This document shows, one piece after another, positions 5,140 to 15,347 of a stretch of DNA of 16,742 bases. This DNA comes from Flavobacteriaceae bacterium. GTDB taxonomy: Bacteria; Bacteroidota; Bacteroidia; Flavobacteriales; Flavobacteriaceae. The position numbers were made by a program, and so were the translations under genes. The notes below the pieces were generated by a model. That model made no database searches, had not been told where the DNA came from, and saw only the letters and a program-made list of their open reading frames with translations. The stretch covers positions 1 to 16,742 of the forward strand of contig NZQO01000036.1 of the NCBI GenBank assembly GCA_002693605.1, written 5' to 3'. Each line of letters starts with the position of its first letter. Position 1 is the stretch's first letter.

Positions 5140-6768
5140 ATGCCTAAGCTCCTTTTTAATATAATACACATCTTTTCAATAGGTTGCGCATTATTGTTCT
5201 GCTCTAGCTGCGACGCACCGCCCGAAATCGCGAACGACCATTTGGTTTTTCGGTACAACGAGCACAGTATAACCACCTCATTAGATCCAGCCTTTGCTCG
5301 AAATCAACAAAATATCTGGCCTACCAATCAATTGTTTAACGGGTTAGTCCAATTGGACGATTCGCTTACTATTCGGCCCGATATCGCGAAACGTTGGGAT
5401 GTGAACGATAGCACCAATACATATACCTTTACCCTGCGCAATGATGTGTTTTTCCACAAACATGCCGTTTTCGGAAAAGACTCTACCCGCCGCGTGGTTG
5501 CAAGCGATTTCTTGTATAGCTTCAACAGATTGACCGATGCGCAGGTGGCCTCGCCCGGAAGTTGGGTAATGGGTAACGTGGCTTCCTATCGCGCCCCCAA
5601 CGATACCACTTTGGTAATCGAGCTAACACAACCATTCCCGGCATTTCTGGGATTGCTGTCCATGCGCTACGCATCGGTAGTGCCCAAAGAGGCCGTGGAC
5701 TTCTACGGTAATGAATTCCGCAGCCATCCCGTGGGCACGGGCCCGTTTCAATTTAAACTGTGGGAAGAGAACGTAAAATTAGTGCTACGGAAAAACCCCT
5801 TGTATTTCGAAACCGATGAGGACGGCAACCAATTGCCTTATCTGGAGGCGGTTTCCATAACATTCCTGCCCGACAAGCAAAGTGAATTCCTACAATTCGC
5901 GCAAGGCAAGCTCGACTTGGTCTCTGGGCTCGATAATTCATACAAAGATGAAATTCTAACCAGCATAGGGGCGCTACAGCCGACCTATAAAGAGGATGTC
6001 GATTTAATAACCGGGCCATACCTGAATACCGAGTACCTTGGTATTTTTATGCCGGTGCAATCTCCCGAGATACAGTCAATCCATTTTCGGAGGGCCATAA
6101 ATTACGGTTTCGATAGGGTGGCCATGATCAAATATTTGCGAAACGGCATGGGCATTCCGGCTACCCACGGATTTATACCTAAGGGACTGCCAGGATTTAA
6201 CGAAATAGATGGATATGAATACAATCCTGCCAAAGCAAGACAGTTGTTGGAAAAGTACAAGGAGGAAACCGGCGATGCGGCACCGCAAATCACCATAGGC
6301 ACGAACAGCCAATATCTTGATATTTGCGAATACATACAGCGCGAACTTGAAAAAATAGGGATTTCGGTCACGATCGACGTGATGCCCCCTTCTACCCTAC
6401 GGCAGATGAAAAGTAGTGGCGAGCTGGATATTTTCAGGGCTAGTTGGATTGCGGATTATCCCGACGCCGAAAATTACCTGTCCCTCTTTTATTCGGAAAA
6501 CTTTACGCCCGATGGACCAAATTATACACATTATAAAAATGAAGTGTTTGACAGCCTTTACGTGAAGGCCCTTTCAATTTCAGACATACAAGAGCGAAAG
6601 GAACTGTATACCAAAATGGACAGCATCGTAATTAGCGACGCCCCCGTGGTACCGCTTTATTACGATATGGCAGTTAGGTTTGTTCGGAAAAATGTTTCGG
6701 GCTTAGGCATTAATCCCCAAAACTTTTTGGTCCTGAAAAGAACGCGCAAGGAACCACCCGCGAACTAA
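5140..6768 (+). CDS. ABC-transporter substrate-binding lipoprotein, family 5 (oligopeptide type)
   Basis: This is a 542-residue extracytoplasmic solute-binding protein of family 5 (OppA/DppA type). The N-terminus is a lipoprotein signal: hydrophobic residues 4-20 followed by CSSCDAP, with Cys24 the likely lipidated residue (a loose Bacteroidota-style lipobox). Family hallmarks include YNEHSITTSLDPAFARN near the N-terminus, WDVNDSTNTYTFTLRNDVFFH, RKNPLYFE, RRAINYGFDR and DIFRASWIADYPDAENYLSLF. The last is the conserved C-terminal lobe motif of peptide-binding members. The likely role is capture of peptides or a similar ligand at the membrane. No permease or ATPase gene is adjacent; a terminator follows at once, so it is monocistronic and its transporter partners are elsewhere, or it has another role. 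It is divergent from mtaB across 60 bp. Confidence 0.9.
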   Translation: MPKLLFNIIHIFSIGCALLFCSSCDAPPEIANDHLVFRYNEHSITTSLDPAFARNQQNIWPTNQLFNGLVQLDDSLTIRPDIAKRWDVNDSTNTYTFTLRNDVFFHKHAVFGKDSTRRVVASDFLYSFNRLTDAQVASPGSWVMGNVASYRAPNDTTLVIELTQPFPAFLGLLSMRYASVVPKEAVDFYGNEFRSHPVGTGPFQFKLWEENVKLVLRKNPLYFETDEDGNQLPYLEAVSITFLPDKQSEFLQFAQGKLDLVSGLDNSYKDEILTSIGALQPTYKEDVDLITGPYLNTEYLGIFMPVQSPEIQSIHFRRAINYGFDRVAMIKYLRNGMGIPATHGFIPKGLPGFNEIDGYEYNPAKARQLLEKYKEETGDAAPQITIGTNSQYLDICEYIQRELEKIGISVTIDVMPPSTLRQMKSSGELDIFRASWIADYPDAENYLSLFYSENFTPDGPNYTHYKNEVFDSLYVKALSISDIQERKELYTKMDSIVISDAPVVPLYYDMAVRFVRKNVSGLGINPQNFLVLKRTRKEPPAN

Positions 6769-6793
6769 AAAACCCGCCTTGGAGGCGGGTTTT
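6767..6793. terminator. Bidirectional rho-independent terminator
   Basis: A perfect 11-bp stem (AAAACCCGCCT / AGGCGGGTTTT) with a 3-nt TGG loop begins right after the stop of the substrate-binding lipoprotein gene. It is A-rich on the left and T-rich on the right, so it can end transcription from both the lipoprotein gene and the convergent DUF4168 gene, whose stop lies 18 bp away. Confidence 0.92.
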
Positions 6794-6811
6794 CGAAATA
6801 TAAGGTCTTCC

Positions 6812-7261
6812 TTATTTCTGCGTCAAGGTTTTAATGCGTTCCTGTAATTGCTGGTCTGTTTGCAATTGCGTTGCAATAGCCTGGTAACGCTCTATTGCCA
6901 ATCCCGACGAGGCCACGTGCGCTTCCATTTTCGCCTCGATCGTGGGCTGCATCGTTTCTATTTCGGCGATAATATTCTCATAGGCTTCCATTTCGGTAGC
7001 GGTAGCATCGATCGCTGCGTTCGCGTTCGCCGATGCCTTCTGAATTTCACTGAACCTGGCCACTTCCATTCCTTCTTCCTCAATAATGCCCATCATTTTC
7101 TGCTGGGCCTTTTGACCCTCCATTTGCACATCCTGGAACGCAGCCACGAACTGCTTCAGTTCGGTGTCGGTAATCCTTTCATCGCTCTGTGCGAAGGCGG
7201 TTGTACCCATGGCAAAAATGAATAGCACTAGGAGAAACTTTGCTTTTTTCAAAAAAATCAT
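6812..7261 (-). CDS. DUF4168 family exported protein
   Basis: This 149-residue protein has a clear signal peptide (residues 1-24, cleavage after TAFA) and a mature part that is almost all alpha-helix, rich in Glu, Gln, Ala and Met. The pattern ITDTELKQFVAAFQDVQ, a central EVARFSEIQKAS with an EMEAYENI repeat, and the closing LAIERYQAIATQLQTDQQLQERI matches DUF4168. The two similar blocks (EVARFSEI and LAIERYQAI) look like an internal duplication. The function is unknown; family members are periplasmic or outer-surface proteins found in flavobacteria, cyanobacteria and proteobacteria. It shares the bidirectional terminator with the lipoprotein gene. Only a weak -7-like sequence lies upstream. 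Confidence 0.85.
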   Translation of the reverse strand: MIFLKKAKFLLVLFIFAMGTTAFAQSDERITDTELKQFVAAFQDVQMEGQKAQQKMMGIIEEEGMEVARFSEIQKASANANAAIDATATEMEAYENIIAEIETMQPTIEAKMEAHVASSGLAIERYQAIATQLQTDQQLQERIKTLTQK

Positions 7262-10700: not shown

Positions 10701-12419
10701 ATGATCTATGTAGACCCGAACACCCTGGAACGCGTCAATAAATGGCTAACGCCTTTTTTCGATTCGGAAACCCAACGCACCATCAAGGAAATGATCGCCC
10801 ACGACCCGAAAGGGCTAGAAGACAGTTTTTACAAGGACCTTGCCTTCGGAACCGGGGGTATGCGCGGAATTATGGGAGTTGGCGACAACAGGATTAACAA
10901 ATATACCCTGGGAAGGAATACACAAGGGCTTAGCAACTACCTGAAAAAACAATTTACGGGCGAAACTCTCAAGGTCGCCATCGCGTACGACTGTCGACAT
11001 AACAGCAAGGAATTGGCCCAGACCGTGGCCGAGGTTTTCACTGCCAACGATATACAGGTATACCTATTTTCGGAATTGCGGCCCACCCCCGAGCTTTCCT
11101 TCGCCGTAAGGCACCTAGAATGCCATTGCGGAATTGTGCTTACCGCCTCGCACAATCCGCCACAGTACAACGGCTATAAGGTGTACTGGCAGGACGGCGG
11201 CCAATTGGTGCCCCCGCAGGATGGAGAGATTATTTCCGAAATTAACGCGTTGGAGTATACCGATATTAATTTCGATGCCAACAACTCCCTCATCACGACC
11301 CTCGATGCCGAGGTTGATACCGCATTTGCCTCCGCCTCCATAAAGAACGGAAGTTTCAACACCCCGCAAGCTGCAAAGGATAATTTGAAAATTGTTTTTA
11401 CCTCATTGCACGGCACCTCCATTACAATGATACCCCGCGTCTTGGAAAGCGCCGGTTACAAAAATTTCAGTATCGTTGCCAAGCAGGCCGAGCCAGATGG
11501 CGATTTTCCTACGGTTAAAAGCCCGAATCCCGAAGAGCCCGAGGCACTGGACATGGCCTTGCGCCAAGCCGAGCGCGAAGGTGCAGACATCGTTATTGGC
11601 ACCGATCCAGACTGCGACCGGCTGGGAATTGCCGTACGCAACCCAGAAGGAAAAATGACATTGCTAAACGGCAACCAGGCCATGGTACTGAAAACGCACT
11701 TCCTCCTGCAGCAATGGGAGCGGGCAGGAAAACTGGATGGCAGGCAGTTCGTCGCTTCCACCATCGTTTCGACCCCTATGGTACGCATCGTGGCAGAAGA
11801 TTTCAATGTGCGCTACAAAGAAGGGCTTACCGGCTTCAAATGGATTGCCAAAATGGTGAAAGACTTTCCTAACCTAGAGTTTATTGGGGGGGGTGAGGAA
11901 AGTTTCGGCTATATGGTGGGCGACTTCGTTCGCGATAAGGATGCCGTCACCGCTACCCTACTGGCTTGCGAAATTGCCGCCCAGAAAAAGGCTTTGGGCA
12001 CGAGCCTCTACCACTATCTACAAGATATTTACACGCGGTATGGCTATTACGAGGAACATCTCGTTTCGCTCGTTAAGGAAGGAAAACAAGGCGCGGAGGA
12101 AATAGCCAAGATGATGCACGAACTGCGCGAGAACCCGTTTACCGAAATTGCCGATAGCAAGGTGGTGCGCATTGAGGACTACCAAAAGGGCGAAGCCCGC
12201 AACTTGGAAGATGGCTCCACCTCGGCACTCGACATACCAACTTCCAATGTATTGATATACTATACCGAAGATGGCAGCAAGATTGCCGCACGCCCCAGTG
12301 GCACCGAGCCCAAGATTAAATTCTATATGAGCGTGAATACGAAGGAGTACGACGCAAACGCCGCAACGGTCCTGCATAAGAAAATTGACTCTATTGTTAC
12401 CTACCTAAATATTCGTTAG
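10701..12419 (+). CDS. Phosphosugar mutase (phosphoglucomutase/phosphomannomutase family)
   Basis: This 572-residue alpha-D-phosphohexomutase interconverts hexose 1-phosphate and 6-phosphate through a phosphoserine enzyme. All four active-site blocks are present: FGTGGMRG (49-56), TASHNPPQYNGYK with catalytic Ser150, the Mg2+-binding TDPDCDRLG with Asp302, Asp304 and Asp306, the sugar-binding GGGEESFGY (397-404) and the phosphate-binding RPSGTEPK (531-538). The length matches the long PGM2/PgcA-like branch, which is often a phosphoglucomutase but can also act on mannose or ribose phosphate, so I give no symbol. The enzyme is cytoplasmic. The last base of its TAG stop is the first base of the GTG start of the ABC exporter, implying translational coupling. 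Confidence 0.93.
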   Translation: MIYVDPNTLERVNKWLTPFFDSETQRTIKEMIAHDPKGLEDSFYKDLAFGTGGMRGIMGVGDNRINKYTLGRNTQGLSNYLKKQFTGETLKVAIAYDCRHNSKELAQTVAEVFTANDIQVYLFSELRPTPELSFAVRHLECHCGIVLTASHNPPQYNGYKVYWQDGGQLVPPQDGEIISEINALEYTDINFDANNSLITTLDAEVDTAFASASIKNGSFNTPQAAKDNLKIVFTSLHGTSITMIPRVLESAGYKNFSIVAKQAEPDGDFPTVKSPNPEEPEALDMALRQAEREGADIVIGTDPDCDRLGIAVRNPEGKMTLLNGNQAMVLKTHFLLQQWERAGKLDGRQFVASTIVSTPMVRIVAEDFNVRYKEGLTGFKWIAKMVKDFPNLEFIGGGEESFGYMVGDFVRDKDAVTATLLACEIAAQKKALGTSLYHYLQDIYTRYGYYEEHLVSLVKEGKQGAEEIAKMMHELRENPFTEIADSKVVRIEDYQKGEARNLEDGSTSALDIPTSNVLIYYTEDGSKIAARPSGTEPKIKFYMSVNTKEYDANAATVLHKKIDSIVTYLNIR

Positions 12420-14242
12420 TGAAATATTTCAGAAAAATAATCAGGTATGCCCTGCCCTACAAAAAATACGCGTGGCTAAATATTATTGCGAACGTGTTTT
12501 ACGCACTCTTCGGGACCTTGGCCATGGTATCGTTATTTCCGATGTTGTCCGTGCTTTTCGACAATACCAAACGCCTAAAAACCGAACCCGTTTGGACCGG
12601 AATTGCCGACGCAAAGGATTATTTTGAAAATTACCTCAACTTTTTCGTAACGCAGCGTGCCGATGAAGGGCCCGGGCAAGTGCTGTTTTTCATGGTATTA
12701 TTGGTCATTGGAATGTTCCTGCTAAAAAATCTTTTCGGGTACTTGGCAATGTACTTTATAACCTACCTGCGTAACGGCGTGCTCAAGGACCTGCGAAACG
12801 AACTGTACCGAAAAACGGTAGCCCTGCCCGTTTCCTTCTATTCCGAAAAGCGCAAGGGCGACACCATTGCCCGTATTACCAGCGATGTGCTGGAAATACA
12901 GCACTCATTCCTCTCCATCCTCGAACTAATTGTACGGGAACCCCTCACTATTTTATTCGCCATTATTGCGATGCTGTTAATAAGCGTGAAACTTACCCTC
13001 TTCGTTTTCATCTTTATTCCCATATCGGGATTGATCATTTCACGGATTGGGAAAAGCCTGAAGAAAAAATCGGATAGGGTGCAGCGCGAGCAGGGATATT
13101 TCCTTTCCATACTTGAGGAAACCCTTGGCGGATTGAAAATTATAAAGGGGTTTAACGCAGAGGGCATCTTCAACCGGAAATTTCAGCAGTCGACCACGCG
13201 ATTTTATAAGTATTCGAATTCCCTCGTAAATAGACAAAATTTGGCCTCGCCTACTAGCGAGTTTCTAGGTATCGTGGTGATTGCCGTAATTTTATGGTAC
13301 GGCGGCCATATGGTATTGGTGGAAAACAGCCTGCAACCCGAACTATTTATCGTCTATATGGGCCTGGCCTATCAAATATTAACGCCCGCTAAGGCCATTA
13401 GCAAGGCTAGCTATGGTGTTAAAAAGGGAAATGCAGCCGCCGAGCGCGTACTTGAAATCCTGGAGACGGAAGCCAGCATACAGGATGCGCCAAACGCAAT
13501 CGAAAAAGCCTCGTTCAACGAGGCCGTTATACTCGACAATATTTCGTTTAAATATGAGGACGAATATGTGCTAAAGGACTTTTCGCTATCCGTTCCCAAG
13601 GGCCATACCGTGGCACTCGTAGGGCAGAGCGGCAGTGGCAAGAGCACCATCGCCAACCTAGTGACCCGCTTTTACGATGTTAACAGAGGAACCATTCGCA
13701 TTGACGGGACCGATATCAAGGAAATTAGCCAGCGTTCCCTCAGATCGTTATTGGGCCTGGTAACACAGGATTCCATACTGTTTAACGACACTATCAAGGA
13801 AAATTTATTGGTGGCCAAGGAAAACGCGACCGACCTAGAAATAGAGGACGCACTAAAGGTCGCTAATGCATGGGAATTCGTAAAGGCCTTGCCCCTCGGT
13901 ATCGATACCAATATAGGCGATAGCGGCAATAAGCTGAGCGGCGGGCAAAAACAGCGCCTAAGCATAGCCCGGGCCGTGCTGAAGAACCCGCCCATCATGA
14001 TTCTCGATGAGGCCACCTCTGCCCTCGATACCGAGAGCGAGCGCCTAGTACAGGATGCCCTGGAAAATATGATGAAAAACCGAACCTCCATTGTTATTGC
14101 GCACCGGCTTTCCACCATTCAGAATGCCGATACTATTGTCGTACTAAGCAAGGGAACAATCGTAGAGCAAGGTAGGCATAGTGAGCTATTAGCCAAGGAA
14201 GGCGTATACCACAACCTTGTTGCGATGCAGTCACTGGCATAA
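12419..14242 (+). CDS. ABC exporter, fused permease and ATPase (MsbA-like)
   Basis: This 607-residue half-transporter has an N-terminal six-helix exporter domain (about 1-335) and a C-terminal ATPase. The nucleotide-binding motifs are intact: Walker A GQSGSGKST (402-410), Q-loop Gln450, signature LSGGQKQR (506-513), Walker B IMILDEATSALD (526-537) and the switch His562. It should act as a homodimer in the inner membrane. Lipid A/glycolipid flippases and multidrug exporters share this form; linkage to a sugar mutase and glycosyltransferase favours a lipid or glycolipid substrate, but that is inference. The start is GTG, overlapping the mutase stop by one base (TAGTG). A bidirectional hairpin terminator follows about 67 bp after the stop. 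Confidence 0.92.
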   Translation: MKYFRKIIRYALPYKKYAWLNIIANVFYALFGTLAMVSLFPMLSVLFDNTKRLKTEPVWTGIADAKDYFENYLNFFVTQRADEGPGQVLFFMVLLVIGMFLLKNLFGYLAMYFITYLRNGVLKDLRNELYRKTVALPVSFYSEKRKGDTIARITSDVLEIQHSFLSILELIVREPLTILFAIIAMLLISVKLTLFVFIFIPISGLIISRIGKSLKKKSDRVQREQGYFLSILEETLGGLKIIKGFNAEGIFNRKFQQSTTRFYKYSNSLVNRQNLASPTSEFLGIVVIAVILWYGGHMVLVENSLQPELFIVYMGLAYQILTPAKAISKASYGVKKGNAAAERVLEILETEASIQDAPNAIEKASFNEAVILDNISFKYEDEYVLKDFSLSVPKGHTVALVGQSGSGKSTIANLVTRFYDVNRGTIRIDGTDIKEISQRSLRSLLGLVTQDSILFNDTIKENLLVAKENATDLEIEDALKVANAWEFVKALPLGIDTNIGDSGNKLSGGQKQRLSIARAVLKNPPIMILDEATSALDTESERLVQDALENMMKNRTSIVIAHRLSTIQNADTIVVLSKGTIVEQGRHSELLAKEGVYHNLVAMQSLA

Positions 14243-14305: not shown

Positions 14306-14338
14306 AAAAAAAAGAGCGGTTGGGGCTCCGCTCTTTTT
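14306..14338. terminator. Terminator of sRNA copy A, also able to end the ABC exporter transcript
   Basis: An 11-bp stem (AAAAAGAGCGG / CCGCTCTTTTT) encloses an 8-nt loop. On the minus strand it runs into eight T residues, on the plus strand into five, so it probably works in both directions but better on the minus strand. Confidence 0.85.
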
Positions 14339-14388
14339 GATTTTGTCGTCGCAATTGGGGCTCGCGACAACTACATAAGTAAGTTAAG
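14306..14388 (-). ncRNA. Candidate small RNA, copy A
   Basis: On the minus strand a well-formed promoter is followed by about 83 nt ending in a rho-independent terminator, with no open frame. The predicted RNA has an unpaired leader containing ACTTATGTA. It is followed by a hairpin (TTGTCGCG / CG-A-CGACAA, loop AGCCCCAATTG, plus-strand 14343-14370), a short A-rich linker, and the terminator hairpin whose loop is again AGCCCCAA. Two loops showing the same C-rich sequence is a common design in trans-acting sRNAs that base-pair with G-rich targets. The structure is seen in sequence; expression and function are inferred. The 5' end is estimated from the -7 element and may be off by a few bases. 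It could belong to an already described flavobacterial sRNA family; I cannot check. Confidence 0.65.
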
Positions 14389-14394
14389 TTGAAT

Positions 14395-14426
14395 CAAATA
14401 TAGAATGTATTTTTATATCTACCAAA
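14395..14426 (-). promoter_or_regulatory. Promoter of candidate sRNA copy A
   Basis: On the minus strand TTTG (14423-14426), a 20-bp spacer and TATATTTG (14395-14402) form a near-ideal Bacteroidota promoter. No protein-coding gene lies downstream in this direction, which is the main reason to read the following hairpins as an independent small RNA. Confidence 0.65.
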
Positions 14427-14444
14427 TATTTTTTGCACTTAATC
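14426..14444. repeat. Upstream repeat block 1, copy A
   Basis: The 19-mer ATATTTTTTGCACTTAATC matches 14683-14701 at 18 of 19 positions. A related CACTTTATCGAT lies at 14457-14468. These blocks lie upstream of each candidate sRNA promoter and may be regulator sites or simply remnants of the duplication. Confidence 0.6.
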
Positions 14445-14491
14445 TGAACAAAATTACACTTTATCGATTTTTAGTTAAGCAATATTAATGT

Positions 14492-14533
14492 TTTTCCTAC
14501 ACGAAAATGTGTTTCATTTTTTCTATACGAAAA
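14492..14533. repeat. Repeated CCTACACGAAAA-type elements upstream of sRNA copy A
   Basis: TTTTCCTACACGAAAA (14492-14507) and TTTTTCTATACGAAAA (14518-14533) agree at 14 of 16 positions and are spaced by 26 bp. The 11-mer TTTTCCTACAC recurs exactly at 14716-14726 upstream of copy B. A regulator-binding role is possible but unproven. Confidence 0.5.
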
Positions 14534-14537
14534 AGAT

Positions 14538-14573
14538 AAAAAAACGGGTCAGCCCCCGCTAAGACCCGTTTTT
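14538..14573. terminator. Terminator of sRNA copy B
   Basis: An 11-bp stem (AAAAACGGGTC / GACCCGTTTTT) with a 12-nt loop runs into seven T residues on the minus strand and five on the plus strand. Inside the loop AGC and GCT could pair to leave a GGGG tetraloop on the minus strand. Confidence 0.85.
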
Positions 14574-14626
14574 ATTGCGTTCCCATTACAGTTGGGGCTG
14601 ATAATGGAGAACTATACATAAGTAGT
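14538..14626 (-). ncRNA. Candidate small RNA, copy B
   Basis: This is a second unit with the same layout as copy A, about 230 bp away. On the minus strand it has the ACTTATGTA leader, then a 10-bp hairpin (GTTC-T-CCATTA / TAATGGGAAC, plus-strand 14579-14612) with loop TCAGCCCCAACTG, then a terminator. The stem sequence is quite different from copy A yet pairing is kept, while the AGCCCCAA loop is unchanged; that pattern points to selection on RNA structure. Unlike copy A, the terminator loop is G-rich (TTAGCGGGGGCT) and complementary to the C-rich loops. The promoter is weaker than that of copy A, so the 5' end is less certain. It could be a functional paralogue or a decaying duplicate. Confidence 0.55.
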
Positions 14627-14632
14627 ATGGGA

Positions 14633-14659
14633 TAAATGTAGTAGATTAATTCCTACAAA
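14633..14659 (-). promoter_or_regulatory. Possible promoter of candidate sRNA copy B
   Basis: On the minus strand TTTG (14656-14659), a 15-bp spacer and TACATTTA (14633-14640) resemble the copy A promoter, with one mismatch in the -7 element and a short spacer. It is placed equivalently with respect to the ACTTATGTA leader. Confidence 0.35.
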
Positions 14660-14682
14660 AAAATATTTAATGCAGTTTGTCG

Positions 14683-14701
14683 ATATTTTTTTCACTTAAT
14701 C
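14683..14701. repeat. Upstream repeat block 1, copy B
   Basis: ATATTTTTTTCACTTAATC is the second copy of the 19-mer at 14426-14444, with one difference. It continues into CGAT, so that CACTTAATCGAT here parallels CACTTTATCGAT at 14457-14468. Confidence 0.6.
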
Positions 14702-14795
14702 GATAATATGTTTCCTTTTCCTACACTATAAGCACTGATTCCTAGCTTCCTTTAAACTATTTTAGCGGGTGATAGTCTTACCTTAAAACCGTTGC

Positions 14796-15347
14796 GTGAT
14801 ACAGGAGAGTGACTTACTAACCAATTTACAGACATCCGAGAAGAAAGAAACGGCATTTCGGCAACTCCTTGCGGCCTACAAGGAAAGATTGTATTGGCAT
14901 GTGCGCCGTATCGTGCTGGACCATGATGATGCCGATGATGTGCTACAGAACACCTTCATTAAGGTGTACCGGCATATCGACTCATTTAAAGGCGACAGTA
15001 AACTATACACCTGGATGTACCGTATTGCAACCAACGAGGCCCTCACGTTTCTTAAAATGAAGGCAAGGCGCAATCATATCACTTCCCAAGAGGTCCAACG
15101 ACAAGCGTTTTCAAATTTGGCAAGTGACATTTATTTTGAAGGCAGTGCCATTCAATTGAAACTGCAACAGGCCATTGCCACCCTACCGGAAAAGCAACGC
15201 CTGGTATTCACCATGAAGTACTTTGGCGCCCACACCTATGAGGAACTATCGGAAATACTCGAGATATCGGTTGGAGGCCTGAAGAGCAATTACCATATTG
15301 CGGTAACTAAAATAAAGGAGTTTTTAGCCGAAAATGAAACCTTTTGA
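14796..15347 (+). CDS. ECF-type RNA polymerase sigma factor
   Basis: This 183-residue sigma-70 family protein contains only regions 2 and 4. Region 2 spans about 28-88, with YKERLYWHVRRIV, the core-binding DDADDVLQNTFIKVYRHI and the -10-melting GDSKLYTWMYRIATNEALTFL. Region 4 spans about 122-176, with LPEKQRLVFTMKYFGAHTYEELSEIL and the recognition helix ISVGGLKSNYHIAVTKIK. The start is GTG: no in-frame ATG precedes the domain, and MIQESDLLTNLQ resembles the usual N-terminus of the group. It heads an apparent three-gene operon with a single-span membrane protein and a Spy/CpxP-like exported protein. By analogy with other ECF systems it is probably held inactive at the membrane until an envelope signal arrives. 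Confidence 0.92.
   Translation: MIQESDLLTNLQTSEKKETAFRQLLAAYKERLYWHVRRIVLDHDDADDVLQNTFIKVYRHIDSFKGDSKLYTWMYRIATNEALTFLKMKARRNHITSQEVQRQAFSNLASDIYFEGSAIQLKLQQAIATLPEKQRLVFTMKYFGAHTYEELSEILEISVGGLKSNYHIAVTKIKEFLAENETF

Follow-up and report, generated by a model that had tools for sequence, protein, structure and literature searches.

The C-rich hairpin loops of the Staphylococcus aureus RNAs RNAIII and RsaE pair with the translation starts of mRNAs, partly loop to loop, as described in the available excerpts of two articles (PMC3053349, PMC8383071). For Rfp18 of Flavobacterium psychrophilum, the excerpted report describes the third stem-loop as the pairing region and predicts metalloprotease and secreted-protein mRNAs as targets (PMC9723704). 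The same excerpts give TAnnTTTG as the consensus of flavobacterial sigma A (PMC9723704).

We analyzed a stretch of 16,742 nucleotides (the window) from a member of the Flavobacteriaceae (assembly GCA_002693605.1, contig NZQO01000036.1). An earlier note, made from the letters alone, had described two minus-strand RNA units of like build in this DNA, and both direct reading and orthologous loci confirm them. These units, A and B, are probably paralogous trans-acting antisense small RNAs (sRNAs) that pair through their hairpin loops with the translation starts of mRNAs for surface lipoproteins. They represent a new sRNA family in a bacterial group with few understood regulators. No Rfam family scored above its gathering threshold in a scan of the window and 11 related loci, and no report of this sRNA family was found in a search of open-access literature that covered the opening parts of abstracts. 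A weak match to MicC lies far below the cut-off and was rejected. Elsewhere in the window (6706–6838), Rfam P9 gave two sub-threshold matches that overlap, one on each strand, and are probably plain terminators.

Flavobacteria do not rely on Shine–Dalgarno pairing, and to our knowledge sRNA regulation in these organisms is little explored. The locus bears on how flavobacterial sRNAs find translation starts, and it offers two sRNAs with two candidate target genes, along with seeds that are kept, lost, or switched across one family.

Two terminated RNA units beside an ECF sigma factor gene

Units A and B lie on the minus strand between an ABC transporter gene and a divergent ECF sigma factor gene. 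Promoter-like boxes precede both units and terminators end them, with boxes and leaders placed by reading the sequence. The hairpins are designated A1, A2, B1, and B2.

12419–14242, plus strand: ABC transporter gene (PF00664, PF00005), convergent with unit A
14306–14387, minus strand: unit A (sRNA A), about 80 nt, putative 5′ end
14306–14336, minus strand: A2, the terminator hairpin of A (14336–14311), with loop AGCCCCAA at 14327–14320 and a T-run to 14306
14345–14371, minus strand: A1, with loop GCCCCAA at 14361–14355; both-sided changes in 9 of 10 pairs
14380–14372, minus strand: leader of A, ACTTATGTA
14395–14425, minus strand: putative promoter of A, with TTG (14425–14423) and the TAnnTTTG −7 box TATATTTG (14402–14395)
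14434–14466, minus strand: direct-repeat element before A, CGATAAAGTGTA (14466–14455) and AGATTAAGTGCA (14445–14434), 21 nt apart
14537–14628, minus strand: unit B (sRNA B), about 85–90 nt, putative 5′ end
14543–14570, minus strand: B2, the terminator hairpin of B, with G-rich loop region TTAGCGGGGGCT at 14562–14551 and a T-run to about 14538
14579–14612, minus strand: B1, with loop AGCCCCAA at 14599–14592, followed by a conserved CTG
14623–14615, minus strand: leader of B, ACTTATGTA
14633–14658, minus strand: promoter-like boxes of B, TTG (14658–14656) and the −7 box TACATTTA (14640–14633)
14671–14702, minus strand: direct-repeat element before B, CGATTAAGTGAA (14702–14691) and CGACAAACTGCA (14682–14671), 20 nt apart, placed by sequence and orthologous pairs
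14796–15347, plus strand: ECF-type sigma factor gene, divergent from unit B

The two units, spaced 237 bp from loop to loop, share one build: direct repeats, a TAnnTTT-type box, the ACTTATGTA leader, a hairpin with a AGCCCCAA loop, and a terminator hairpin. The TTG stands 20 nt before the −7 box of A and just 15 nt before that of B. The loops had been claimed to be alike, and AGCCCCAA is indeed present three times, in A1, A2, and B1. However, the terminator loop of B is G-rich and complementary instead: the GGGGCU within AGCGGGGGCT (14560–14551) is the exact complement of AGCCCC. The region of the A terminator hairpin (14306–14338) carries T-runs on either strand, and transcription of the ABC transporter gene probably terminates there as well.

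Conservation, covariation, and strand

Related loci were collected with the sigma factor protein as query, and the best 80 of 324 candidates, all named, were examined. Stems and loops like those in the window are conserved at the same place in relatives. Both A and B are present at 28 of these 80 loci, and a 29th (L002), on a cut contig, has B only. Scores at the carrier loci are at least 55.6 bits for A and at least 47.3 bits for B, and position, order, and strand are all alike. Since 24 of the 28 A sequences and 19 of the 29 B sequences built the models, these match by construction; the remaining four A and 10 B units came to light through the models alone. Carrier genera include Altibacter, Ulvibacter, Marixanthomonas, Cochleicola, and Patiriisocius. 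Among the same 80, loci of Aequorivita, Allomuricauda, Flagellimonas, and Zeaxanthinibacter gave no A or B match, and a Pustulibacterium locus (L053) has a weak match of 24.5 bits near the right place.

A search of 397 genomes from the family found B in 32. For unit A, 142 genomes gave a match at E 1e-3, many of the weak ones being likely chance, and 34 reached E 4e-10. Beyond the family, a class-wide draw of 395 genomes searched for B under strict filters returned only the genome of the window. Twelve of the weaker A matches were inspected with their surroundings, and by eye 11 stand before the same ABC transporter gene; all but one of these 11 (G161) look like single units with CCCCAA-type loops. 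A-like single RNAs are therefore wider spread than the pair, which resembles a tandem duplication that arose in part of the family. In the single-unit loci L158–L160, L162, L164, L165, L168, and L169, terminator loops are mostly of the GCCC(C)AAA type. G343 and G167 likewise have A and lack a B match, and G076 has B and no A match.

Both RNAs are more stable than expected from their composition, with folding z scores of −7.06 (A) and −3.94 (B) and no equally stable shuffle among 200 for either. Alignments comprise 26 rows for A (25 distinct) and 21 for B (18 distinct). Paired cells make up 96.2% of the A alignment and 93.3% of the B alignment, values that are partly built in because the structures were derived from the same sequences; when the structure is slid along the alignment, they drop to 36%–71% and 30%–48%. 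Cells changed on both sides number 89 for A, compared with 28.1 in shuffles, and 24 for B, compared with 6.8. The earlier note had called the stem differences between the two paralogues covariation. Two pairing paralogues alone do not yet amount to that, but the orthologue alignments establish it, with compensatory change in all four stems. For example, the inner terminator stem of B changes in step from AGC/GCU to CGC/GCG in L013. This covariation rules out chance or a plain terminator. A coding role was likewise set aside, as short ATG frames within the units seem, by eye, not to be kept in frame.

Alignment cells that pair as G–U on the minus strand outnumber those that would do so on the plus strand by 58 to 2 for A and 22 to 11 for B. 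This excess of G–U over A–C cells indicates that the RNA is the minus strand. Covariation and G–U bias together support the earlier claim of structured minus-strand RNAs.

The same data bear on two cis-acting explanations. A bidirectional terminator of the ABC transporter gene (A2) accompanied by chance hairpins would fit the T-runs on both sides of A2 and its position just behind that gene. Yet the first hairpin of each unit covaries independently, both units are preceded by promoter-like boxes and direct repeats, and the G–U bias gives the minus strand, so we consider this reading extremely improbable. Equally improbable is a plus-strand 5′ leader of the sigma factor gene acting in cis in place of sRNAs. 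Unit B does lie ahead of the sigma gene, about 170 bp from its start, but the G–U pairs favor the minus strand, the promoter boxes face in the other direction, away from that gene, and neither RNAs nor repeats are found at 51 loci among the best 80 of 324.

The GCCCCAA loop of A1 is nearly constant (GCCCUAA in L019 and L031), and its stem differs in sequence from one species to the next. In A2, CCC(C) is kept in nearly all sequences, with the variants UUCCCCAA or UCCCCCAA in L003, L005, L006, and L008 and a loss in L044. The best conserved seed of B is the terminator G-loop: GGGG occurs in all 27 B units read, L022 having GCGGGGAC. The GCCCC of B1 is intact in 17 of these 27. Because the other 10 have lost the C-loop and kept the G-loop, intramolecular kissing between B1 and B2 is unlikely to be the sole reason for the G-loop. 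Beyond the units read, the B-position unit lacks the G-loop in G042 and G262, which rules out a universal G-loop. Both RNAs are conserved structured RNAs with accessible seeds.

A shared promoter element and candidate target leaders

One or more pairs of CGATNAARTGCA-like half-sites, mostly 20–21 nt apart, stand before the units at all 29 named loci with the RNAs; none of the 51 loci without them has such a pair. A genome search with a pattern for this element gave 29 sites in 16 genomes, compared with one for the reversed pattern. Thirteen sites are at the sRNA locus, the match in the window's own genome being 14438–14466. Among the 16 other sites, four precede a CAP-domain (PF00188) gene, three a 7TMR-DISM protein gene, and two a small gene of zinc-ribbon-like type; in G090, one site is upstream of a gene called Y here. 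Thus, the sRNA units and the CAP gene have a direct-repeat promoter element in common.

In repeat spacing and place, the element resembles the repeats of LytTR regulators, at least as excerpted (PMC6193735). LytTR-type promoter sites have direct repeats about 20–22 nt apart just upstream of the −35 region, and those found here are 20–21 nt apart. For Streptococcus mutans, the same excerpts report LytTR repeats that are 9-mers, mostly 12 bp apart (PMC6193735). At three loci (L201, L189, and L190, in G301, G194, and G209), the 7TMR-DISM membrane protein gene lies beside a fumC-like gene and has the same direct repeats upstream. Its product has a GerE (LuxR-type) match below the cut-off, and this GerE-like membrane protein is a candidate regulator of the element. 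In L175 and L198, the direct repeats before the small zinc-ribbon-like gene are reversed in orientation.

The CAP gene product has, judged by eye, lipoprotein character. Its leader is strikingly constant: an ATCA(U/A)GCCCCAAAUUUGAUG hairpin is followed by GCCCCCG or a close variant, with the AUG within a few bases. In 32 of the 37 leaders tabulated the hairpin shows GCCCCAAA, whose loop is GCCCCAA as in the sRNAs. A C-run of at least four between the hairpin and the ATG is found in all 33 G-loop genomes and in one of four without the G-loop. In the genome of the window (G000, contig 115), AGCGGGGGC of B and GCCCCCGCU of CAP form nine perfect pairs at −21.6 kcal/mol. Over 32 genomes, the duplex between B2 and the CAP leader averages −17.2 kcal/mol with a mean z of −1.46 against dinucleotide shuffles, of which 426 of 3200 (13%) pair equally well, making this a modest test. 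CAP duplexes with B1 (mean z 0.25) and A1 (−0.21) do not stand out against shuffled leaders.

Two further observations concern these leaders. L233 and L235 (G042 and G262) belong to the genus with no G-loop in its B-position unit, and their CAP leaders have neither GCCCC nor a C-run but instead carry hairpins with UUCCCAAA. A whalefall-1 match in L188 is below the gathering score and about 1.2 kb from the CAP leader, and was rejected.

Protein-sequestering RNAs such as CsrB and RsmY carry a repeated GGA loop motif. The recurrence of GCCCCAA could likewise reflect a decoy, in which an RNA-binding protein recognizes the GCCCCAA-loop hairpins and is mopped up in a CsrB/CsrA-like manner by A (two sites) and B (one), the CAP leader carrying the control site next to its start codon. 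The same loop is found in A1, A2, B1, and the CAP leader hairpin under a similar promoter element; its conservation extends to the AA, two bases left unpaired by the G-loop of B; and both A and the CAP hairpin retain it in G343 and G167, two genomes that gave no B match. We nevertheless regard such a decoy as unlikely, since it leaves unexplained the G-rich loop of B, the Y leaders and those of a further group, X, which bear the opposite sequence, and the fact that B1 changes together with Y.

A second alternative is that B mainly binds A, or the reverse, through G-loop and C-loop. The GGGGC of B2 is the complement of sequence in the A loops, both units are present at all 28 uncut carrier loci among the best 80 of 324, and the A1–B2 duplex averages about −14 kcal/mol. 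However, this duplex hardly beats shuffled B2 (mean z −0.4; 964 of 2700 as good), the CAP leader fits B2 better, Y is left unexplained, and A occurs without B in the two genomes just named and in single-unit genera, as does B without an A match in G076. An sRNA and anti-sRNA pair is compatible with trans-acting pairing at mRNA leaders; as the main role of these RNAs, we find it doubtful.

The Y gene encodes a lipoprotein-like protein of about 60 residues that matches no Pfam family above the cut-off. It was found in 30 of 58 genomes, comprising 29 of the 33 with the G-loop and one of the 25 others (G262). A single 60-residue query from a G-loop genome was used, so absence elsewhere may partly reflect distance. 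The Y leader carries UGGGG, matching the C-loops, just before the AUG in 18 of 30 cases; in several, UGGGG forms the loop of a small hairpin touching the start codon, as in UUACA-AUUGGGGC-UGUAAUG. In the window's own genome the element is CAUUUUUGGGGAAAUG, with UUGGGGA rather than UUGGGGC. Among the 12 leaders without the G-element, four occur despite an intact B1. At L271–L300, many Y promoters have a TGCATTTCAACGA-like half-site 38–39 nt and a CTTCAACTAAAA-like half-site 18 nt before TTTGGTA; these lie about 20–21 nt apart, a reverse-orientation variant of the direct-repeat arrangement.

The B1 C-loop and the Y G-element tend to occur together: intact and present in 16 genomes, intact and absent in four, lost and present in two, and lost and absent in eight (Fisher p 0.004, without correction for kinship; genomes in all target statistics are related, not independent). 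Duplexes between B1 and Y of the same genome reach −27.2 kcal/mol. The best of B1 and B2 on the Y leader of the same genome averages −15.6, compared with −8.0 for the region further upstream. When partners were permuted between genomes, B1 with Y was equaled in 2 of 20,000 permutations (8 of 5,000 with one genome per genus), and the best of B1 and B2 in 0 of 20,000 (1 of 5,000). With A1 added (28 genomes), 187 of 20,000 were as good. Pairing of A1 with Y is not genome-specific (own −13.04, permuted −13.31), and B2 alone does no better on Y than permuted partners (5,528 of 20,000).

Against shuffled leaders, B1 with Y (mean z −2.16) and A1 with Y (−1.55) stand out, with 723 of 3000 (24%) and 595 of 2800 (21%) shuffles, respectively, pairing equally well; B2 with Y (−0.23) does not. 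For three Y leaders without the G-element (G283, G063, and G278), the B G-loop is instead matched by C-rich sequence ahead of the AUG (−21.3, −14.7, and −14.5). Within one genus, B1 and Y differ between G156 and G336: the G336 pair (−9.2) is slightly better than the swapped pair on the same leader (−5.9), and G336 B1 on the G156 Y leader (−17.4) is better than on its own. The base before GCCCC in A1 and the base after GGGGC in Y are U/A in seven cases, A/U in six, U/U in three, and A/A in none (p 0.011, uncorrected).

Searching 13 genomes for TAnnTTTG followed by TTGGGGC within 32 bases gave 83 places, compared with 41 for the reversed pattern, and two recurring leaders, X and Y. Of 18 places inspected, 12 belong to these groups and six are inside coding regions or unshared. 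X comprises several different genes, six of which were inspected, probably with secreted products; they share the promoter CCTACGTATATTTG and a GC(A/U)GUUGGGG leader, whose element CAGUUGGGGC matches the conserved AGCCCCAACUG of B1. X-type leaders occur at 10 places in nine of the 33 G-loop genomes and in none of the 25 others (reversed pattern, 0). X is the weakest group of predicted targets, as a genome needs the CCTACGTATATTTG promoter to show such a leader at all. Searched for in the window's own genome, AGCCCCAA is not enriched (80 sites, compared with 90 for the reversed pattern). For GCCCCAA early in transcripts of 24 genomes, the shared sites recognized among the matches listed are A, B, the CAP leader, and one that resembles a coding start.

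Conserved complementarity to translation starts elsewhere is therefore present for CAP and Y, with modest shuffle scores, and is weaker for X. The earlier proposal that the C-rich loops are aimed at G-rich sites agrees with the UGGGG found beside the start codon in candidate target leaders. Its set of seeds was incomplete: the G-rich loop of B, best matched by the C-rich site of the CAP leader, was overlooked. It also held that targets need not be ribosome-binding sites; they are not Shine–Dalgarno sites, but the proposed ones do sit at translation starts.

A model for A and B and its relation to known systems

In the scheme that we favor, trans-acting pairing at translation starts, A and B would be made when the factor that reads the direct repeats is active. 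Each would be a separate minus-strand transcript that ends at its own terminator hairpin. Their hairpin loops would then display the seeds that begin pairing with mRNA leaders at the start codon: the C-rich GCCCCAA loops of A1, A2, and B1 with UGGGG at the Y start codon, and perhaps with X leaders, and the terminator G-loop of B with the C-run just before the CAP start codon or, in some genomes, before that of Y. Such pairing would most likely block translation start. Opening of the Y hairpin by A or B may instead lead to activation. Because the C- and G-loops match each other, A and B may also titrate one another.

A more tentative possibility, which we put forward with reservation, is a circuit of two polarities in which one factor induces CAP, A, and B, the G-loop restrains CAP, the C-loops restrain Y, and mutual titration sets the lipoprotein ratio. 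Here B would have gained its terminator G-loop by duplication, and Y would be a lineage-specific lipoprotein mRNA. If this is true, then loop–loop pairing would set the ratio of two envelope lipoproteins. The pair also illustrates how a duplicated sRNA could plausibly acquire a complementary seed.

RNAIII and RsaE resemble A and B in that C-rich hairpin loops, one of them in the terminator hairpin, pair with translation starts. Their host is unrelated, as is their sequence as far as the Rfam scan tells; the targets proposed here are not Shine–Dalgarno sites, and here a paralogue bears the opposite, G-rich seed in its terminator. Like CsrB and RsmY, these sRNAs have a repeated loop motif that is also found in an mRNA leader, although the motif is GCCCCAA and not GGA. 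Rfp18, as portrayed in the excerpted report, belongs to the same bacterial family and likewise has strong structure and a stem-loop predicted to pair with mRNAs (PMC9723704); by that description, its pairing region and targets differ from those proposed for A and B. As with the sRNA sponges described in excerpts (chb for ChiX; SroC for GcvB and MgrR), one RNA can pair with the seed of another (PMC8383071), but A and B are free-standing neighbors, each also fitting mRNA leaders.
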